64,000 nucleotides of DNA, from contig NZ_AOJE01000057.1 in NCBI RefSeq assembly GCF_000337915.1, positions 16,719 through 80,718 on the forward strand, in the 5' to 3' direction. The notes beneath the pieces were generated by a model, which was not told where the DNA came from, did no database searches, and saw only the letters and a list, made by a program, of their open reading frames with translations. The stretch comes from Halorubrum saccharovorum DSM 1137. Its GTDB lineage: Archaea; Halobacteriota; Halobacteria; Halobacteriales; Haloferacaceae. Both the position numbers and the translations under genes were made by a program. Position 1 is the first letter of the stretch, and every line of letters starts with the position of its first letter. Of the stretch, positions 1-51,954 are shown in pieces.

Positions 1-89
1 TAAACCGGAGAATCTGCGACTTCGGGAGGGCCTTCATCTCATCAAATTACGCGGCGAACATGTAACTCTCTGAGGATTTCAACAGAGCC
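1..89. mobile_element. Right end of an IS6-like element entering from outside the window
   Basis: The terminal sequence GGATTTCAACAGAGCC lies at 74-89 and is the reverse complement of the GGCTCTGTTGAAATCC ends found at 46.9-48.6 kb. An open frame from position 2 stops at 71-73, directly inside the terminal repeat, and encodes about 23 residues. This could be the C terminus of the element's transposase, but the peptide is too short to recognise. The other end lies outside the window. Confidence 0.55.
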
Positions 90-39092: not shown

Positions 39093-39242
39093 ACTATCAC
39101 TCGAACTCGACAGGGTCATAGGCTTTTTGTACACTTTTTTGAGCGAGAAAATCCAGCTTTGTTGGACGTTGCGATGATCGAAGTAGTAGCCTTGGGCCCT
39201 TCCTGACAGCCCAAATTCGTGGGGGTCTATTGAAGCGTAGTA

Positions 39243-39258
39243 GATTTCAATAGAGCCG
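39243..39258. mobile_element. Solo IS6-like end
   Basis: GATTTCAATAGAGCC is a variant of the terminal repeat seen at 46912 (GGCTCTATTGAAATCC), here in reverse orientation. No partner end is visible nearby, so it is a relic. Confidence 0.4.
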
Positions 39259-42270: not shown

Positions 42271-42690
42271 AAACGCCTCGCGCGGCACGCCCGCCCCGTG
42301 CGGCACGCCCGCGGCAGCACAGCCCGTCGCGACCGAGGTCGAGCGGACGCCCGGCCGGCAGCGCAGCCGGTCCCGAGGAACGCCCGGACCCGGGGCATAC
42401 CGGGGCGAGCACGGCGAACCCCGGTAGCCGCGGCAGCCCGGCGGGAAATCGGGACGAGGGCGAGTGCCCGAGCGGCGAGCAGCCCGACCCGGACCGCGCA
42501 GGCGGCCACGTCTGAACCGCCGGCCGTCGGCGCGACCGCAGCGAGGGAGCGCCGACGCACCGGCCGGTGAAGATGCAGTCGTCCGGCTCCGGTCGAACCC
42601 GGTCGCGGGCCGAGTGCTCGCAGACCCGCTTGCGGGTGAGTCCGGTATCGGGCGACTGCACCCGGCCCGACCCGGTCCCGTGACCGTGCC

Positions 42691-42713
42691 CCGTCCGTCG
42701 TTAGACGCAACGG
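42691..42713. repeat. Hairpin repeat, copy 3
   Basis: The arms are the same as in copies 1 and 2, with the loop GTTA. Only the loop differs between copies. Confidence 0.7.
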
Positions 42714-42929
42714 CAGCGCGAAAGCCCGGGCCCGGCAGGAACGGTCTGCCGGCCGGAGCGCGCGCAACCCGAGGAGGTACCCCCGAACGTACGGGAGTCA
42801 CGCACCGGGCAACCGACCCAGATGCTGCCTGGTATCCCGGATGTCGGAGCAGCGCACCCGCCTAACTCAGACCTATCTCTGGGCCGCGAACAACGCGGGG
42901 GGCCAGCGGTGGGCGAGGCAGGTCGCTAC

Positions 42930-43320
42930 GACTCTGTTGAAATCCTCTTCTTCAGATATATTATTATCTGAAACGTCTGGTCGCTAAAGAGTCCGTACGT
43001 GTTATATTAAGCAGTACATTTTCACGAGATCCGGCTCATGAATCACAATCCGAGGAGTACAAATCTAATACCAAAGAACACGATAACAACCCCCGCGATC
43101 CGGCCGACAGTAATCGATAGTTGAGTCATTTCGACATCAGCCGCAGTCTGTTTTGTTCCCCATGATTGCGCGATACGATAGTATTTATCCATAATAGGGG
43201 GATACACTGCGAACAACCCGCCTATAAATATAGATATAATTCCAAATCCGATCACCGGAAGACTGATCATAAGATATTGTGGCAGGTACCCAAGCAAATG
43301 TCTTGTCCCTCCTGTTCGGT
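42930..43320. mobile_element. IS6-like A-end remnant carrying a small membrane protein gene
   Basis: GACTCTGTTGAAATCC at 42930-42945 is followed by TTCAGATATATTAT and CTGAAACGTCTGGTCG, matching the A-ends at 47009 and 47979. The opposite end was not found, so this copy is probably truncated. The cargo gene at 43043-43297 points toward the A-end. The right boundary given is approximate. Confidence 0.5.
43043..43297 (-). CDS. Small membrane protein carried by an IS6-like element
   Basis: The 84-residue protein starts MLGYLPQYLMISLPVIGFG. It has two hydrophobic helices, one near the N terminus and one at the C terminus, separated by a polar loop (YYRIAQSWGTKQTAADVEM). The layout is like DUF6199-type small membrane proteins, but this is weak. 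It is the only gene between the IS6-like end at 42930 and the gene-poor stretch that follows. Confidence 0.5.
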   Translation of the reverse strand: MLGYLPQYLMISLPVIGFGIISIFIGGLFAVYPPIMDKYYRIAQSWGTKQTAADVEMTQLSITVGRIAGVVIVFFGIRFVLLGL

Positions 43321-43671
43321 CATAGGTTCATTTCGATAGGCACTGGTCCTGTACTGAGCGATTCGCGACATCCCTATACTGACTGAACACTCTCTCGTGA
43401 ACTGGTCTCAGTTTGTATTATAGTCGAACGCTCTACTCCGTCCACCCTGAATATATGGCTGAACTGCCAGAGACCAGGGCATCGACAGCCACCCCAAGCC
43501 ACTTGGAGCGTCTGCTCGCGCTCGCCTCACGCCGGAGACGACTGCGAGTTTCACACCTCGGCGAATAGGCATACCCAACTCTGTCCGCCTCGCACACGGT
43601 TGCGGGGTGGTTGAGACACTGCCGCTATGCGACGACAGTACGGCTGCTCAATTAGATGCCGATAGGGCATC
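43321..43671. other. Gene-poor stretch
   Basis: No convincing gene is present. A 37-codon ORF at about 43455-43568 reads LERLLALASRRRRLRVSHLG, which may be a fragment of a haloarchaeal winged-helix protein. TACTGAGCGATTC at about 43350 is shared with 46214 and may be an old IS fragment. Confidence 0.35.
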
Positions 43672-44961
43672 CTAATTCGTTGGGAGGCGCGCTATTCCTC
43701 CCTCGCTGCGGTAAGAGACGTATAGCCTGTCAGTGGCCGCTGTCACGCCGATTCGGTAAGACTCCGGGTCGTACTGCCACTGGCGTGTCCCACTGGCGGG
43801 GTCGTAGGCGGCGAGTTCAGTTCCACTAGCCACGACGAGCACTGCCCCCACACGCGCCAGCGTGTCGACGGTTCCACCGATCGCGATGTCGGTCGTCGTC
43901 TGCCACTGGCGGGTGCCATCACGGGTGAACGCATCCAGTCGGATCAGGATCCCGCCGTCGGGATCGTTGACAGAGCTCGCGACGAACACGCGCTGTGGAG
44001 TCGCGGTCACCGTTTCAAGCTCGTAGCCGACGTTTTGACGCCACTGAACGGACCCGTCATCATGGCTGAGAGCAACGAGTTCGTCCGCACGATCGGGACG
44101 GCCGGCCCGCACATAGGTGTGCTCACCGAGCCAGAGTGGCGGCCCGTGGTAACTGGTCACCTCGCCAGCGATCGCGGTTCGCCACACCACGTGCCCATCG
44201 GCGGCTCGGCGCATCCGGACAGTGGAATCCCGAACGGTGACGATTCGATTATCGGCAGCGACCACGTGGGGATAGCTGTCGCGAGCGGACGACTCCCACA
44301 GTAGCTCACCGGATTCCGGCGCGAGCGCCACTAGTTTTGTCTCCCCATCCGGATTCGGCACTGGCAACAGACACGCAGCGGCACTGAGCGTCGGGACCGG
44401 ATACTGGGGGCCGGATCGCTGGAAGCGGCGTGTCCCATCGTAGGCGTCGTAGCCGACAACCGTCTCATCGACCGGATCAATGCTGACCAGCAGCGATCCC
44501 CGCCGCCCGAGCCAGCCGTTGCGAGCCTGCCCCGCTACGTGCCAGCGCTCGCCTCCTTCCAGTCCAACGGTGTAGAGGTCACCGTCGGTGCTGTGGGCGT
44601 GAACCGGGCCACCCGATGCCGGGACGGCCGGTTGCGTCTCGATTGGTCCCCCGGTCTCGAAGGTAAACGCTGCCTCCCCGTCAGGCGTGAACGCGTGGAG
44701 TCGCTTATCCTGTCCCCCGACGACGACGTGGTCAGCTGTCGCGGCTGGAGGACCTGCTGTCGAGGCCTCGGTGAAGTCACGCTCCCAGCGCGGTTGCACG
44801 CCGCCCGTGAGCGACTGTACGTTACACCCTGCGAGACCGGCGACACCAACCGAGGCAATTGAGGCGAGCGCCTGCCGGCGCGACACCGCCCGGCCGGACT
44901 GTCGCCTGCCCGTCTGTCGCTCCGGGGCCTGCGTTTCGGTAGGTGGGGTCGAGTCACGCAT
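43672..44961 (-). CDS. Tat lipoprotein with PQQ-like beta-propeller (1)
   Basis: The 429-residue protein has a twin-arginine motif (SRRQALASIASVGVAGLAGC) with a lipobox Cys. Blade-like repeats follow (AHSTDGDLYTVGLEGGERWHV, VALAPESGELLWESS, VALSHDDGSVQWRQN, AAYDPASGTRQWQYD) typical of PQQ-type propellers. It probably sits on the outer face of the membrane and may act in surface protein assembly or sensing. Its start overlaps the end of 44954-46129 by 8 bp. Confidence 0.8.
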   Translation of the reverse strand: MRDSTPPTETQAPERQTGRRQSGRAVSRRQALASIASVGVAGLAGCNVQSLTGGVQPRWERDFTEASTAGPPAATADHVVVGGQDKRLHAFTPDGEAAFTFETGGPIETQPAVPASGGPVHAHSTDGDLYTVGLEGGERWHVAGQARNGWLGRRGSLLVSIDPVDETVVGYDAYDGTRRFQRSGPQYPVPTLSAAACLLPVPNPDGETKLVALAPESGELLWESSARDSYPHVVAADNRIVTVRDSTVRMRRAADGHVVWRTAIAGEVTSYHGPPLWLGEHTYVRAGRPDRADELVALSHDDGSVQWRQNVGYELETVTATPQRVFVASSVNDPDGGILIRLDAFTRDGTRQWQTTTDIAIGGTVDTLARVGAVLVVASGTELAAYDPASGTRQWQYDPESYRIGVTAATDRLYVSYRSEGGIARLPTN

Positions 44962-46129
44962 CGGTGATCGCCTCCGGAGCGATCCGCGTCAGCCCGAATG
45001 TCTGCCCGAGATACACGGTCTCACCGGCCGCCTGCGCCCACTCAATGCTGCCACCGTCCTCGAAGGGCCTTCCGCTGAGTTCGACCGTTCGGACGCGTGT
45101 TCCATCTAGTTGATGAACGTAGAGCACAGTGGGGGAGAACGGGACGGTGCCACTTGGACCGCGGATATGATGGGATCCACCGACTAGTGTCACGAGGCGG
45201 TCGTCGATGCGGAACGGGCCGTGCGTCACGGCGTTTGCGAGGTCATCGCGCCACAACTGCTCGCCTGTGGCCGGATCGAACGCCCGGAGCGTGTAGTCTG
45301 CGCCGCCGACATACACCCGGTCCTCGGTTGCCAACGGCCGTGCGAACACCGTGTTCGCCAACGAGCCACGCCAGGCGATACTCCCGTCTGCGATATCCAG
45401 CGCCAGCAACTCCTCAGTCGCGGCACCAAAATACGCGTTCCCGTGGGCAACGCCAACCGCTGACAGCGCAGCACCGACGTCACGCGTCCAGCTGACTGTC
45501 CCGTCCTGGGTGAGCAAGCACACACGACCGTCGACGAGGGGCGCAACGACACCACCGGCCGTCGCGCCGGGCGCCCCCGACAACGACGCGGACAGCTGGT
45601 GTGTGAACAGCGTTTCTCCGTCTGCCCGGGCAACCCCGACCACTCGGTCGGGGACGTCATCTTCGGTGCCAGAGATCGGAACGACGATACGGTCACCGAG
45701 CGGGATCGGAGCGAACGCAACGACCCCTGGATCGGCTTCATCGATCGGTGCGAGCGGGCGCTGCCAGACGGTGTCCCCCGTGGTCGCATCGACTGCGACC
45801 ATGGTTTCGGCCTTTGAGATGGCATACGCCCGCCCGTTACCGAGGCCGACTGGCGATTTTTCGCCTTTGGCGACCGTCACGGTCCAGGTAGTTTCCCCAG
45901 TCTGGGTGCGGAGGCCGGCGACGATTGGTCGATCTCGGAACGGACTACGGGAACCGACAATCAGGTGCCTGGCCGCGGTCATGGCGATAGATGACGGCTC
46001 ACGAGCGTCCGTATACCACGATCGCTGAATCGGACCCGACTCCGTACTGCGAAGTGCGGCACAGCCGGCAACACTACCGACAACGCCGGTCATTACTCCG
46101 AGGGCTACCCGACGGGTCAGAGAGGGCAT
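44954..46129 (-). CDS. Tat-type lipoprotein with PQQ-like beta-propeller (2)
   Basis: The 391-residue protein starts MPSLTRRVALGVMTGVVGSV and has AGC as a lipobox. Repeats such as VAVDATTGDTVWQRP, LALDIADGSIAWRGS and RAFDPATGEQLWRDD mark a PQQ-type propeller. It is a paralogue of the downstream gene and is co-transcribed with it. Function unknown. Confidence 0.8.
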   Translation of the reverse strand: MPSLTRRVALGVMTGVVGSVAGCAALRSTESGPIQRSWYTDAREPSSIAMTAARHLIVGSRSPFRDRPIVAGLRTQTGETTWTVTVAKGEKSPVGLGNGRAYAISKAETMVAVDATTGDTVWQRPLAPIDEADPGVVAFAPIPLGDRIVVPISGTEDDVPDRVVGVARADGETLFTHQLSASLSGAPGATAGGVVAPLVDGRVCLLTQDGTVSWTRDVGAALSAVGVAHGNAYFGAATEELLALDIADGSIAWRGSLANTVFARPLATEDRVYVGGADYTLRAFDPATGEQLWRDDLANAVTHGPFRIDDRLVTLVGGSHHIRGPSGTVPFSPTVLYVHQLDGTRVRTVELSGRPFEDGGSIEWAQAAGETVYLGQTFGLTRIAPEAITDA

Positions 46130-46404
46130 TACTCAACTGTTGCGACGACGGTTGTATCAGTCTTGTTTCTATCGCGAAAATTATCTGTAATCGAGAAGGC
46201 GAGATTTCACCGGTACTGAGCGATTCCCGAGTTCTCTGTCGTGACCGCGCAGAGTGATTGGTCTACATGATGAAGGAGACAGGCGGTGGTGAGTTCACGG
46301 AACTGTTGCCACCACCACCGTGACCGGACGAACGCCCCGTACTCCCACGTGAGCGTTGAGTTGGCGATCTCTGAGTGACTCCGTTGGCCCCACTCTCTAA
46401 CTCC

Positions 46405-46869
46405 TTAGCGATCCCTGACCGGCCTGGGAATTCCAGACACGGTAAAACGGGCGACCGTTCCGCAGCGGGGACACTCGTCGACGAACGCACAGACTCGAAG
46501 CGAGAGTTCGACCTCCCGACAGTTCCCGCAGACGGAACACGCAAAGGGGGTCCGATACCGGACTGCCGGCCGGTGCTGCGGCGGTCGTCTCCAAGGGGTC
46601 GATGCCGCGGTCGGCGTGTCGCGAGCCGGCGGTGTTGGGGAGTGGGCTTGCGTCGGCGCTGAGTGCTCCTGGGATTCCGTCTGAGCCCACGCACCGAGTG
46701 CGACGGCCGCTGCCCCCTCCTCGAGCACGCCGTCGATGGCAGCCGCCAGTTCGGCGAGCGGCTTGGAGATGTCGGCGTCGCCGTGGGTCTCAACCGCGTT
46801 CTCGAAGAGCCAGTCGCGGAGCGTCGCTGCGGTTTCTCTCTTGACCGTGTACGATGGATGTGCGTTCAT
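46405..46869 (-). CDS. Zinc-finger plasmid protein of unknown function
   Basis: The 154-residue protein starts MNAHPSYTVKRETAATL. It has a helical N-terminal half, a Pro/Thr-rich linker and a C-terminal zinc finger (CSVCGNC...CPRCGTVARF). The leader dyad-like sequence at 46879-46905 is directly followed by the IS6-like end at 46912, so that insertion has replaced the region upstream of the promoter. No family is recognised. Confidence 0.6.
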   Translation of the reverse strand: MNAHPSYTVKRETAATLRDWLFENAVETHGDADISKPLAELAAAIDGVLEEGAAAVALGAWAQTESQEHSAPTQAHSPTPPARDTPTAASTPWRRPPQHRPAVRYRTPFACSVCGNCREVELSLRVCAFVDECPRCGTVARFTVSGIPRPVRDR

Positions 46870-46878
46870 TCGGATCTC

Positions 46879-46905
46879 ACTCCCCCCCTTGTGGGCCCGA
46901 CAAAC
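46879..46905 (-). promoter_or_regulatory. Degenerate leader dyad cut short by an IS6-like insertion
   Basis: Coding strand: GTTTGTCGGGCCC, ACAAGGGG, GGGAGTGAG. It keeps the GTTTGT and G-rich parts of the family. The insertion point lies within about 6 bp of the GTTTGT. Confidence 0.4.
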
Positions 46906-47008
46906 CACAACGGCTCTATTGAAATCCGCAACTGATTATATGTTCTCGGAGCCCTGCTGAATACAGAACGCGAATGTGGCACGTCGCAGTGACGAAATTA
47001 AGATAGAT

Positions 47009-47485
47009 GGCTCTGTTGAAATCCTATTCTTCAGACATATTCTTGCCTGAAACAGCCGGTCGATGAGAGCTGCGTAATTACCGTTTATCTCTTTGTCAAA
47101 CGGTGACGACCAATCATCGCCGAAAGTACTTATAGAGTTAGATGGAACTAATTTCTATGCCCGCATTCGGTATTGGAACCCCGATATTCCTCATCGTACA
47201 AGCCCTCATCTCGTCGTTTGTCTACTCCGAGGCAAAAGAATATGGATCACGCTCCCCGTTAGTCGTAGGAATATCCGTATTCTTACTGGGAGTGGGGTTT
47301 GCACTCATATTCAGTACTGTCGTCGGATTAGTTGCGGTCGAACTTCTTGTTATCTTCATCTACCTTATCGGCGTACACGCTGGTAAAGGGCGTTCCTTCC
47401 CCACCTGAACAGTCTGTTACCTGTATCTCTTGTACTGACCACAACCGGGAAGAATCTATCACTTTTTGAGGATTTCAACAGAGCC
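47009..47485. mobile_element. Nested element 1 with IS6-like ends and 8-bp target duplication
   Basis: Ends GGCTCTGTTGAAATCC (47009) and GGATTTCAACAGAGCC (ending 47485) are flanked by AGATAGAT on both sides (47001-47008, 47486-47493). It is 477 bp and has no transposase. It carries one membrane protein gene. Confidence 0.85.
47142..47408 (+). CDS. Small membrane protein carried by nested element 1
   Basis: The 88-residue protein starts MELISMPAFGIGTPIF. It has two to three hydrophobic helices (IFLIVQALISSFVY, LVVGISVFLLGVGFALIF, VVGLVAVELLVIFIYLIG). It is the only ORF in the element and reads from the A-end toward the B-end. A start at the second Met (47157) is also possible. Function unknown. 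Confidence 0.6.
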   Translation: MELISMPAFGIGTPIFLIVQALISSFVYSEAKEYGSRSPLVVGISVFLLGVGFALIFSTVVGLVAVELLVIFIYLIGVHAGKGRSFPT

Positions 47486-47606
47486 AGATAGATCGATTCG
47501 GTCAGTACAGGAGACTCACAAATCACTCAGTACGGGGGAATCTCGGCACGTTCTGAACAGACAACTTGTGATTTGTCTAACCGTTTATCAGTTGTTTATT
47601 TCGACC

Positions 47607-47979
47607 GGCTCTGTTGAAATCCTTAGGAAGTGATACATTCTGCCCCGGGTGTGGTTAATATAGACGAAGTGGAAATCACCCGTATCTGACGGTTTTAATG
47701 CTGCTGTTGAAAATGAAGCAACATGACCCCGAAGAAGGCTATTACACTATACATTACGCTGCCTTGTCTCCTATACGGCGTATTCTTCATCTTAGCAGTC
47801 ACACGGTATTCCGGCATGATTGAAAGAGAGACGCTGTATACCGCACACACAGTGTTTGCTGGTTACATCGCCCTCATTGTCTACACAAAACGGGACCAAC
47901 TGACCACAGTATAAGCACTTTTTAGCGACCAGTCGTTTCAGGCGATAATATATCTGAAGAATAGGATTTCAACAGAGCC
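47607..47979. mobile_element. Nested element 2 with IS6-like ends and 8-bp target duplication
   Basis: Ends GGCTCTGTTGAAATCC (47607) and GGATTTCAACAGAGCC (ending 47979) are flanked by TTTCGACC (47599-47606, 47980-47987). It is 373 bp. Its ends match those of nested element 1 over about 40 bp, but it is inverted and carries a different gene. Confidence 0.85.
47723..47914 (+). CDS. Small membrane protein carried by nested element 2
   Basis: The 63-residue protein starts MTPKKAITLYITLPCLLYG. It has two hydrophobic helices (LYITLPCLLYGVFFILAV and TVFAGYIALIVYT). It fills the element and reads from the B-end toward the A-end, the reverse of element 1. Function unknown. Confidence 0.6.
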   Translation: MTPKKAITLYITLPCLLYGVFFILAVTRYSGMIERETLYTAHTVFAGYIALIVYTKRDQLTTV

Positions 47980-47990
47980 TTTCGACCCGA

Positions 47991-48410
47991 TTAACCTCCC
48001 CGCTCATACGAGAATACCGTCTTTCGGTCGTTCTCCTCATGGACGTGGTTCAACACCAAATCGTTGATAGTGAAGTTCGCCGTGATCTCGCCGGCGTATG
48101 CCACCGTTGCCGGGCCGTCACAATCGTCACCAGTCGTCTCTGTGGTGAGTTCAACAATCACATCGCCCTCATTGCTGGCGAACGCCGCAGTCTCAAGCGT
48201 GACGCAGTCAATGTCCGCTCTAAAAGCCCCCTCCACAGTAGCGTGGTCGTCGTTCACCGTGACCGTCGCCTTATCCTCCGGATCGTCATTGGCCGTCACT
48301 GATTCAATCTCAACAGTAGCCGAGACCTCGGGAGGAGTGTCACCGAGACACCCACTACCGACGGTAGCCAGTGTAATTCCGGTACCGGCGAGAAACCCTC
48401 GGCGTCTCAT
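47991..48410 (-). CDS. Tat lipoprotein of unknown function
   Basis: The 139-residue protein starts MRRRGFLAGTGITLATVGSGC, a twin-arginine signal with lipobox. The mature part is beta-rich and acidic with two further cysteines. It lies inside the outer IS6-like element (46912-48611) and looks like its cargo. Confidence 0.68.
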   Translation of the reverse strand: MRRRGFLAGTGITLATVGSGCLGDTPPEVSATVEIESVTANDDPEDKATVTVNDDHATVEGAFRADIDCVTLETAAFASNEGDVIVELTTETTGDDCDGPATVAYAGEITANFTINDLVLNHVHEENDRKTVFSYERGG

Positions 48411-48662
48411 ATATGAGACACGGTGAGTGCTAAGTATATGCTTTGTCCCAGTTGTTCAAGTAGGCGGCTGTACTGAGTCGAACAATACGCAGGCACGTTC
48501 TATCGGCTAATTCAGGATTCGTTTTGAGAAAATAACGCAGTCCCCGTGCTGACTACATCCTCTGTATCTCGTATGCCAATCCTGTCAGTCCTTAAGGATT
48601 TCAACAGAGCCACCACACCCTATCTTCAGCCCTAGTGGTGCGACCACATCCAGGTGGTAACG

Positions 48663-48728
48663 AGGTTGTGGCTGCGCGCGCAGCGACCGTAGGGAGCGAG
48701 CACGGAGCGGTGGGCGGGGCGGCGGGGC
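48663..48728. repeat. GC-rich 3' repeat, copy 2 (after the TFB gene)
   Basis: This is the same block order as 40824-40884: GGTTGTGGCTGCGCGCGCAG, a variable bit, GCGAGCACGGAGCGG and GGGGCGGCGGGG. It lies about 45 bp past the TFB stop codon. Confidence 0.7.
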
Positions 48729-48771
48729 GTCCACGGGCGGCGGTCGACAGAAAAATCGGGACCACCCCCGC

Positions 48772-49851
48772 TCACCGCAGGGTGTCCCGCTCTGCTTCGA
48801 GGCCGACACTCGGGTCGTCGGTGCCGTGTTCGTCCGTGTAGGCGTCGACGAGCTCCTGACTGTAGCGGGCGATCCGGTGGCGGGATGTCGCCACGATCGT
48901 GCTCGCCGCCGCGACGACCTGCGGTTGGGTGAGGTGTTTCTCCGGGAGCAGGCGATCCGCCGCGTACAGCGCCGCCGCTGCGACGGTGCACCGTGGCGTC
49001 CCCGAGCCGACCGGCACCTGGTCGCCGAGTTGCAGCAGGTGCTGCGCCAGCCGCCACGTCCGCACGGCTCGCGCTCCGGGGATGGCGTCGGCATCGAGCG
49101 CGTCGACGACCGCCATCACGGCGTTGGGCCTGATGAGCGGCACGTCGAACCCGCACTCGCACCGGATCTTCCGCGCCGCAGCGCACACCCGCTCGTGGGG
49201 TGCTTTGGTGTACCTCGCGACCGCGACGTCGATGTCGTCCCGGTCGACCGACGAGGCCCGTACGGCCAAGAGGACGGCGCCGCCGGCGAGGGCTTCCCAG
49301 GCCATCCGTCCGCCCGGGAGCCGCGCCTCCGAGGCGCTCCGGAGGTGCTGCGCTGCCTGCCTGATGACGTGGTCCGGCAGGCTCAGGTTGCCGCCGATCA
49401 TCTCGACATCCCGCAGCCCCTCGTTGAGCCGCTTTGTCCGCTTGCGCGTCCCGCCGAACTGCATCCGCTGGTGCCATTTCCGGAGGCGCTGGACCGTCTC
49501 CCACTGCTCGTTGCTGAGGGGATTCCCCTGACCGTCGGTGCTCCGTCCGATCTTCGTGTGGAGGCTCTTGTCCGTCCGCAGCGGGTCTACTGTCTCGATG
49601 CTCTGGTCCGCGTCCCCGACCAGTCCGAGGTCGGTCAGCGTCGGGCTCAGGTCGACCCACTCGTCGGCGACGATCAGCCCGCAGTCCGTACAGAACGACT
49701 GTTCGTCTTCGGTGATCACCTGGCCCGCACACTCCGGACAGGCGGATCGCCCCGCCGGCTCGTGTGCGACCGTCGACTCGTGACCGCGTTCCTCGGTGGT
49801 TGTACGCTGTCCGTCCGAAACCGTCTTTTCGCTCGCGTTGTTACTCGACAT
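48772..49851 (-). CDS. tfb: TFB, archaeal TFIIB-type transcription initiation factor
   Basis: The 359-residue protein has an N-terminal zinc ribbon (CPECAGQV...FCTDCGLIVADEW, about residues 38-65), a B-finger-like linker and two cyclin-fold repeats (AALAGGAVLLAVRASSVDRDDIDVAV and AAAALYAADRLLPEKHLTQPQVV). It recruits RNA polymerase to TATA/BRE promoters. Haloarchaea have several TFBs, and plasmid copies are common. The start MSSNNASEKTVS resembles that of the OB-fold gene at 41826. An HPL-type core helix-turn-helix (VAAASTIVATSRHRIARYSQ) closes the second repeat. Confidence 0.88.
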   Translation of the reverse strand: MSSNNASEKTVSDGQRTTTEERGHESTVAHEPAGRSACPECAGQVITEDEQSFCTDCGLIVADEWVDLSPTLTDLGLVGDADQSIETVDPLRTDKSLHTKIGRSTDGQGNPLSNEQWETVQRLRKWHQRMQFGGTRKRTKRLNEGLRDVEMIGGNLSLPDHVIRQAAQHLRSASEARLPGGRMAWEALAGGAVLLAVRASSVDRDDIDVAVARYTKAPHERVCAAARKIRCECGFDVPLIRPNAVMAVVDALDADAIPGARAVRTWRLAQHLLQLGDQVPVGSGTPRCTVAAAALYAADRLLPEKHLTQPQVVAAASTIVATSRHRIARYSQELVDAYTDEHGTDDPSVGLEAERDTLR

Positions 49852-50712: not shown

Positions 50713-51954
50713 CTATTCGTTGGGCCCCACCACGTCCCCCTCGACGGGGAACCACAGGTGGTCGTCCCACTGGAACCGCACGGGCCGTGCCGTCGGCCTG
50801 ACTTCGGTGTTCGTTGCCTGTTCGAGCAGCGTCCGCGACGCGACGAGATCGGCGTGCCCCTCGAAGCCACACGGACACCGCAGCGTCTCGCGATGCCGGC
50901 GCGTTCGTTCGCGCTCCCCGCACTCCGGACACGTCTGGGACGTCCACGCTTCAGAGAGTGAGGCCACCTCGATGCCGAACTCCTCGCAGACGTTCCCGAG
51001 TTGATCGAGACACTGCCGATGCGCCCAGAAGGTACGCGCTTTGAGGTTCGCCTCGACGGACCAGTACTCGCCGAGGACGCCGGTGAGGTCGCCGTGATAG
51101 ATGGTTTCGACGCCGTTGTCGTGGAGTCGCTCGACCAGATCACGAAGGAGCGCGTTTACGGCGTGGTCGCGCCGGCGGGACCGCCTCCGATAGAGCCGTT
51201 GGATCCGCGTACTGGTCTGCTGTCCATCCGGCAGCTTCGCTTTGGCGTCGGCGATGCGCTGGGTCGTCTCACGGAACTGTCGGAACGGCTCCTGGCCGCT
51301 GTACCAGTACTGGTCGCCGATCGTCGTCGTACACCCCACGAGGACGTTCGCGCCGATATCGAGCGCGGCGACGTCCGTCCCCGTCGGCGTCGCCTGTTCC
51401 GCCTCGGAGACTGTTACGGGTTGGTGGGCGCGATACGTCTCGTCGACGTCGTCGTAGGTGAGGTGAAGGCGGCCCTGCTCGCCCTGCCAGTGTGGTTCAC
51501 CGCGGACGGCAACACGGAGCCGCTCGAACCGACTGAAGCCGTACTCGTCTTTGAGCTGGCTGCCGATGGGCACTTCGAGCCGGGAGCGCTCGCCCCAACT
51601 GATCGTGTAGGCGTCGTTGCGGATGTAGGTCCGCAGGTCGCGCCCGTCGGCTTGATTGCCCCAGTAGCCGGGGGGACTGACCTCCTGGTCGGCCTCCTCA
51701 ACCGTCTCAAAGAACGACCGCCAAGCGGCGTCGTTGACGCGGGTGACCTGCTGGGTCGTCGCCGACCCCAACACGTCGACGTACTCGTCGTAGTAGTTCT
51801 CACAGTCCCAGACACTCTCGCCGGCGAAGAACTGCTGCCGGCGCGCATACGTCAGCTGGTTCCAGAGGATCGCTGACGCATCGAGAAGGCGTCGAAGGAC
51901 GGCCTCGTCTTGTTCCGATTGTGGAACGACTTCGAAGGTGTTGGTCCGTCTCAC
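50713..51954 (-). CDS. TnpB-like protein lacking the second RuvC glutamate
   Basis: The 413-residue protein has the TnpB architecture: Ruv[11 protein letters not shown], zinc finger [22 protein letters not shown] and [12 protein letters not shown]. The RuvC-II position, normally an E in FEDL, reads [10 protein letters not shown]. If the alignment is right the nuclease is inactive, as in TnpB-like repressors. The start is GTG at 51954, overlapping the stop of a 58-residue ORF (GTGA). Confidence 0.78.

Follow-up and report, generated by a model that had tools for sequence, protein, structure and literature searches.

The elements at positions 46912–48611 of the window (the whole stretch of DNA that was analysed, 64,000 nucleotides of Halorubrum saccharovorum DSM 1137, here called the host) very probably belong, as mobile insertion cassettes, to a single modular IS5/ISH1-like system found in Halobacteria. 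Two complete cassettes with unrelated small membrane-protein genes sit, by direct reading, within an outer element. The features of the window are as follows, with the flanking 8-bp sequences given as octets.

1–89, minus strand: transposase-side end (T-end) of the element G000:C57:15100-16807, which bears a transposase and extends mostly to the left of the window
42930–43297: remnant, a lone A-end with an 84-aa membrane-protein ORF (43043–43297, minus strand)
46252–46404, minus strand (G000:C57:62970-63122): remnant, C-terminus of a transposase of the same family; 65% identical across 51 residues
46912–48611, strand not applicable: outer element, 1,700 bp, C-end left and D-end right; octets at 46904–46911 and 48612–48619, ACCACAAC and ACCACACC, 7 of 8 bases identical
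47009–47485: cassette 1, 477 bp, in the order A-end, cargo, B-end; octets at 47001–47008 and 47486–47493, both AGATAGAT
47157–47408, plus strand: cargo 1 (cassette 1), small membrane protein of 83 aa, with a further in-frame ATG at 47142
47607–47979: cassette 2, 373 bp, in the order B-end, cargo, A-end; octets at 47599–47606 and 47980–47987, both TTTCGACC
47723–47914, plus strand: cargo 2 (cassette 2), small membrane protein, 63 aa
47991–48410, minus strand: cargo gene of the outer element, encoding a predicted Tat lipoprotein of 139 aa with a lipobox

The perfect duplications of the two inner elements, proposed in the initial annotation, stand on direct reading, as do their unrelated membrane cargos in opposite orientations to the ends: the gene of cargo 1 runs from A to B and that of cargo 2 from B to A. 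The near-perfect duplication and the lipoprotein of the outer element are likewise borne out, and so is the A-end at 42930 with its small membrane protein. This A-end matches 15 of 16 bases, its ORF has a weak DUF6199 match below the cut-off, and a search nearby gave no partner end. In the homologue of cargo 1 the start codon corresponds to 47157, so a length of 83 aa is more probable for this protein than 88 aa. The same C and D ends as in the outer element frame the host interval G000:C25:16872-18168, around a different cargo, and the homologues of the outer-element lipoprotein, at about 44% identity, are not flanked by such ends. None of the window cargos is given a function by Pfam, NCBIfam, PADLOC or PHROGs, and Rfam has no match over 42500–49000. 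Elsewhere in the window, two degenerate end-like sequences nearly abut face to face at 39222–39257 (GGTCTATTGAAGCG...GATTTCAATAGAGCC), possibly the remains of an element, and a 413-aa ORF at 50713–51954 on the minus strand reads as TnpB-like (the RNA-guided nuclease of IS200/IS605 elements).

The host contains three full copies of a 273-aa transposase between the same ends; the nearest lies just left of the window, whose bases 1–89 are its end, and the T-end is situated 52 bp from the transposase start codon. The transposase belongs to the IS5 family (PF01609, E=1.2e-16; NF033579, E=2e-62), and YGQRSQSETVNSTLK, read in the transposase P0001, corresponds to the Y-(2)-R-(3)-E-(6)-K signature that characterises IS4/IS5-type transposases. 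The elements also have the terminal inverted repeats and the 8-bp duplications of the ISH1-like group of the IS5 family; ISHla2 and ISHxa2 are relatives of the transposase, and 219 plasmid records match it, the closest being haloarchaeal. The window cassettes themselves contain no transposase, the IS5-type DDE transposase being present only in the transposase-bearing members. The initial annotation had assigned the elements to IS6, as non-autonomous elements moved by an IS6 transposase, and this assignment is extremely improbable. Duplications of 8 bp are typical of IS6 and occur in the ISH1-like IS5 group too, so that this IS6/IS26 trait, found here, is not specific. The host does have two IS240/IS6-type matches, and the L106 element contains a protein resembling those loci; however, neither host locus is flanked by these ends. 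Moreover, an IS6-type transposase (PF13610) was not found between the ends, and every full transposase recurring at a fixed distance from them is of the IS5 family. The broader proposal of transposase-less elements served by a transposase elsewhere is upheld in so far as related transposase-bearing copies exist in the host, but these copies carry differing passengers as well.

Across the haloarchaea, 171 loci yield 86 pairs of inverted ends flanked by 8-bp duplications (exact in 77 pairs), and none of these loci gives exact octets at five shifted offsets (1, 2, 3, 5 and 7 bases); chance matching of the octets is thereby rejected. Among the 84 elements longer than 250 bp, 50 possess a transposase and 34 do not. 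The transposase-bearing elements, which were gathered by similarity to one transposase, have a T-end and usually an A-end, sometimes a B-end or another end, and a few composite elements have other outer end pairs. The transposase-less elements have chiefly A- and B-ends, and only one has a confident T-end. These numbers bear directly on the derivation of the cassettes from transposase-bearing elements by internal deletion. L157, which retains a 31-residue transposase fragment and a T-end, fits such a derivation; however, a simple deletion would be expected to leave the T-end that most transposase-less elements do not have, which refutes deletion as a general origin and leaves it improbable. 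The cassettes are likewise not the deletion products of one IS. In the public annotation of the examined records, the elements are listed as an 'IS5 family transposase' alongside a 'hypothetical protein', or are absent. The host genome is a draft, and the lengths of C57:15100-16807 and C57:156235-158041 are unreliable because both hold scaffold gaps with duplicated ends. At G000:C20:26633-29905 (L042:2134-5406), a B-end and an A-end lie about 3.3 kb apart with octets that do not match, enclosing two ORFs of 431 and 519 aa, neither with a Pfam or PADLOC match.

The 16-bp end, GGCTCTGTTGAAATCC, already discerned in the initial annotation, has 51 matches in the host genome with at most 2 mismatches, against 0 for the reversed control, and 9 in the window with at most 3 mismatches, against 0.26 expected. 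The exact 16-mer is present in 271 of 391 Halobacteria genomes and 71 of 86 genera, with 0 control matches in the same table. In viral contigs, the A-end 27-mer has no match, and the 16-mer occurs in 20 contigs with one match apiece. Two boxes are common to the end types, at positions 1–16 and 25–34, the second being roughly TGAYATRTTC. Among 165 distinct ends, chosen by the 16-mer and octets only and not by the second box, 158 have A27 and likewise 158 have A29, 161 have C or T at position 28, and 145 have T at position 32. The full second-box pattern fits best in T- and B-ends and is rarer in A- and unclassified ends, classes other than A, B and T being loosely defined and the C/D ends few; its central bases are common to nearly all ends, and A27 and A29 are present in all six window ends. 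Because these central bases are near-universal, the best explanation is that a single transposase family would recognise all the end types. Conservation extends over about 70 bp in A-ends and about 60 bp in B-ends.

Between these constant ends the cargo changes. In 49 of 50 element pairs whose transposase genes are at least 90% identical in DNA, the cargo is unrelated; similarity ends near the transposase stop codon, in most pairs no more than about 14 bp from it, and resumes only in the last 16–75 bp. The single cargo-sharing pair consists of two copies of one 1,450-bp element, inserted at different sites in the host (TGCTATTC) and on a Halolamina plasmid (ACATCCTC). By these comparisons, cargo turns over faster than the transposase. 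The idea of non-autonomous elements with conserved ends and exchangeable cargo is upheld. Simultaneously, the same cargo occurs with and without a transposase. A passenger gene next to the transposase of Natribaculum luteum (element octet ATTTGGAT) encodes a protein that shares 76% identity with cargo 1. The closest homologues of cargo 1 outside the host (66–80% identity across most of the sequence, two fragments at contig ends excluded) all have an A-end or a neighbouring transposase or remnant (5 of 5), the A-end distance being mostly 132–135 bp; the more distant homologues show no convincing ends. Homologues of cargo 2 lie in cassettes of further Halorubrum genomes, at different sites and flanked by the octets TCGAGAGG and ACTCGTCT, and a 236-aa membrane protein is common to the transposase-bearing L153 and the transposase-less L179.

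Cassettes 1 and 2 each consist of a passenger between IS-type inverted ends without a transposase, as in a mobile insertion cassette, and movement as a unit is indicated by the relatives of cassette 2 found elsewhere with other octets and by the empty site of the transposase-less C10:19521-20794, seen in G391 in diverged sequence. Empty sites with a single octet also exist for two host elements that bear a transposase, namely C57:124258-125707 (in G284 and G206) and C57:15100-16807 (in five relatives). Empty sites, which the initial annotation had proposed to inspect, were thus recovered for three host elements but not for the outer element of the window among 52 genomes of the genus. The outer element, carrying both cassettes, could move with its inner ends skipped, as described below, although each inner cassette has octets of its own and therefore looks like a later insertion.

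In the proposed mechanism, an IS5-family DDE transposase would recognise the two-box end (GGCTCTGTTGAAATCC at 1–16 and roughly TGAYATRTTC at 25–34) and may pair any two ends in inverted orientation, namely the T-end beside its own gene, an A-end, a B-end or a C/D pair, each transposition creating, on this model, an 8-bp duplication. Where insertions are neighbours, the outer ends would be joined and the inner ends skipped, so that everything between would become cargo; later decay or deletion would then yield T-transposase-cargo-A elements or transposase-less A-cargo-B cassettes, the latter moved in trans. Since the A–B cassettes have no T-end, the related IS transposase is their presumed mobiliser on the strength of shared boxes, A-ends and octet length. 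The order of events in cargo capture is likewise inferred. Skipping of inner ends is visible in its products, because octet-bounded elements hold internal ends: 14 such elements (some weak) have internal ends outside any nested octet-bounded insertion, against our own estimate of about 1 by chance. L081 has the arrangement [A-cargo-B], 9 bp, [T-transposase-cargo-A] within one shared outer octet pair, and L087 is built alike. L153 contains an internal A-like end, a T-like end and two passengers, the second of which, an RDD protein, is a passenger in L210 as well. In L157, [A-PycC-PycTM-B] is joined to a transposase remnant and a T-end. A less favoured, unlikely route is that cargo is exchanged mainly through homologous recombination, with conserved ends of adjacent copies as the substrate, instead of inner-end skipping. 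The 60–70 bp of conservation in A- and B-ends speaks for it, and so does the crosswise pairing of octets among the host ends C57:156235, C57:158041, C28:38557 and C56:89 and among the ISHla2 copies of Halorubrum lacusprofundi, a pattern that recombination between copies would produce. Against it, the octet-bounded elements with skipped inner ends show that the outer ends were used for transposition, and elements with new cargo have their own matching octets, which recombination between copies at different sites would usually break. The crosswise host octets, observed between contigs (L052, L044, L047), are AGAAATCG and GTTCTATC; they would also be expected from misassembly at a collapsed repeat in the draft.

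The cargo genes are mostly under purifying selection. For 15 homologous cargo pairs, 12 of the 14 finite dN/dS ratios range from 0.09 to 0.41 (0.29 for cargo 1 and 0.25 for cargo 2), and the two higher values (0.64 and 0.72) belong to little-diverged pairs. A membrane segment or lipobox is predicted, by simple hydropathy and motif rules, in 45 of 71 cargos (a set that includes a few homologous pairs), compared with 28 of 132 annotated genes from three haloarchaeal plasmid stretches (p=5.8e-9); among proteins of 45–160 aa, the proportions are 37 of 46 and 5 of 40 (p=1.2e-10). In shuffled element sequence, 10% of the longest ORFs have a membrane segment. Calling the longest ORF can misname a cargo: that of cassette 1 is in the wrong frame, and its cargo was assigned by hand. 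The dN/dS ratios, the membrane enrichment and the shuffled-sequence comparison together reject the cargo as chance ORFs. The earlier emphasis on cell-surface cargo is partly sustained, membrane proteins and lipoproteins being favoured, but other gene types occur too, including a dihydroxy-acid dehydratase, a CNNM protein, a PAS kinase, an RDD protein, transcription regulators, an Mrr nuclease with HEAT repeats and a weak HEPN-like match. At L104:4949-7987 of Natrialba aegyptia, an octet-bounded, transposase-bearing element has as its passenger a full dihydroxy-acid dehydratase (ilvD-like), a housekeeping-type enzyme.

In the case of L157:6244-8174 (G224, same genus), an octet-bounded element of 1,931 bp, which also holds a transposase remnant, contains adjacent genes for a Pycsar cyclase and a PycTM effector (PF18967, E=1.5e-9; PADLOC PycTM, E=2.4e-28), and this complete Pycsar pair is a predicted antiviral system carried whole on one cassette. 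At L160:1428-3726, also in G224, nested elements with octets of 7/8 carry a weak HEPN-like gene (inner) and an Mrr nuclease with HEAT repeats (outer). The presence of the Pycsar pair, the Mrr-type nuclease and the weak HEPN-like match in such elements suggests that defence or superinfection exclusion may be the role of some other cargos. Any benefit of the cargo probably lies in cell-envelope or defence traits. One Halorubrum passenger gene has been proposed to exclude virus (PMC10544981); a simple motif scan of the fetched loci gave no PGF-TERM protein, and that passenger is therefore not tied to the cassette family.

Because near-identical transposases accompany unrelated cargo in dozens of octet-bounded elements, the exchange of cargo by a small IS becomes directly testable in culturable archaea. 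The cassettes, overlooked by standard annotation, also point to a large number of small membrane proteins and lipoproteins that have no known function, most of them under purifying selection. More tentatively, one small transposase and interchangeable two-box ends might capture, stack and redistribute short genes throughout the class, a gene-cassette shuffling that would play in archaea a part similar to that of integrons in bacteria. If so, chiefly cell-envelope and antiviral genes would be involved, and the cassettes would amount to a large store of surface-exclusion and defence genes that have yet to be described.

The ingredients are all known, namely IS5 elements, mobile insertion cassettes (MICs), passenger-bearing IS and ORF-bearing haloarchaeal MITEs (PMC3129680, PMC6542083, PMC3913671, PMC3119063); a class-wide family with stable transposase and ends but ever-changing cargo was not found described in the openly licensed literature. 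The system is a variant of MICs and passenger-bearing IS. MICs, such as MIC231 of Bacillus cereus and those carrying qnrD or qnrS2, likewise have a passenger gene between IS-type inverted ends without a transposase, are flanked by duplications and are thought to be moved in trans (PMC6542083, PMC3129680, PMC3913671). Compared with them, the present elements are archaeal, have IS5/ISH1-like rather than IS231-type ends of several interchangeable types, occur in most Halobacteria genomes sampled and differ in cargo in nearly every copy. The 'transporter IS' (PMC3129680) similarly combines a transposase with an unrelated passenger in one element, whereas here the passenger varies among near-identical transposases and the same passengers occur in transposase-less elements. 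ISHla2 and ISHxa2, of the ISH1-like group of IS5, have the transposase family, ends and octet duplications in common, but are annotated as plain IS, with the cargo region and transposase-less relatives not described in the accessible literature. The haloarchaeal MITE ISH2/HqIRS32 (PMC3119063) is likewise short and transposase-less, with one small protein-coding ORF; however, that ORF is fixed in each MITE family, while the cargo here is open-ended between constant ends. Modular carriage of variable genes is shared with integron cassettes and with Tn7-like transposons, which carry defence genes as cargo (PMC8649781). In contrast to the integrase, attC sites and ordered array of the former and the targeting proteins of the latter, a small DDE transposase and octet duplications are found here, and octet-flanked inverted ends at scattered sites, together with this transposase, point to transposition rather than an integron mode.
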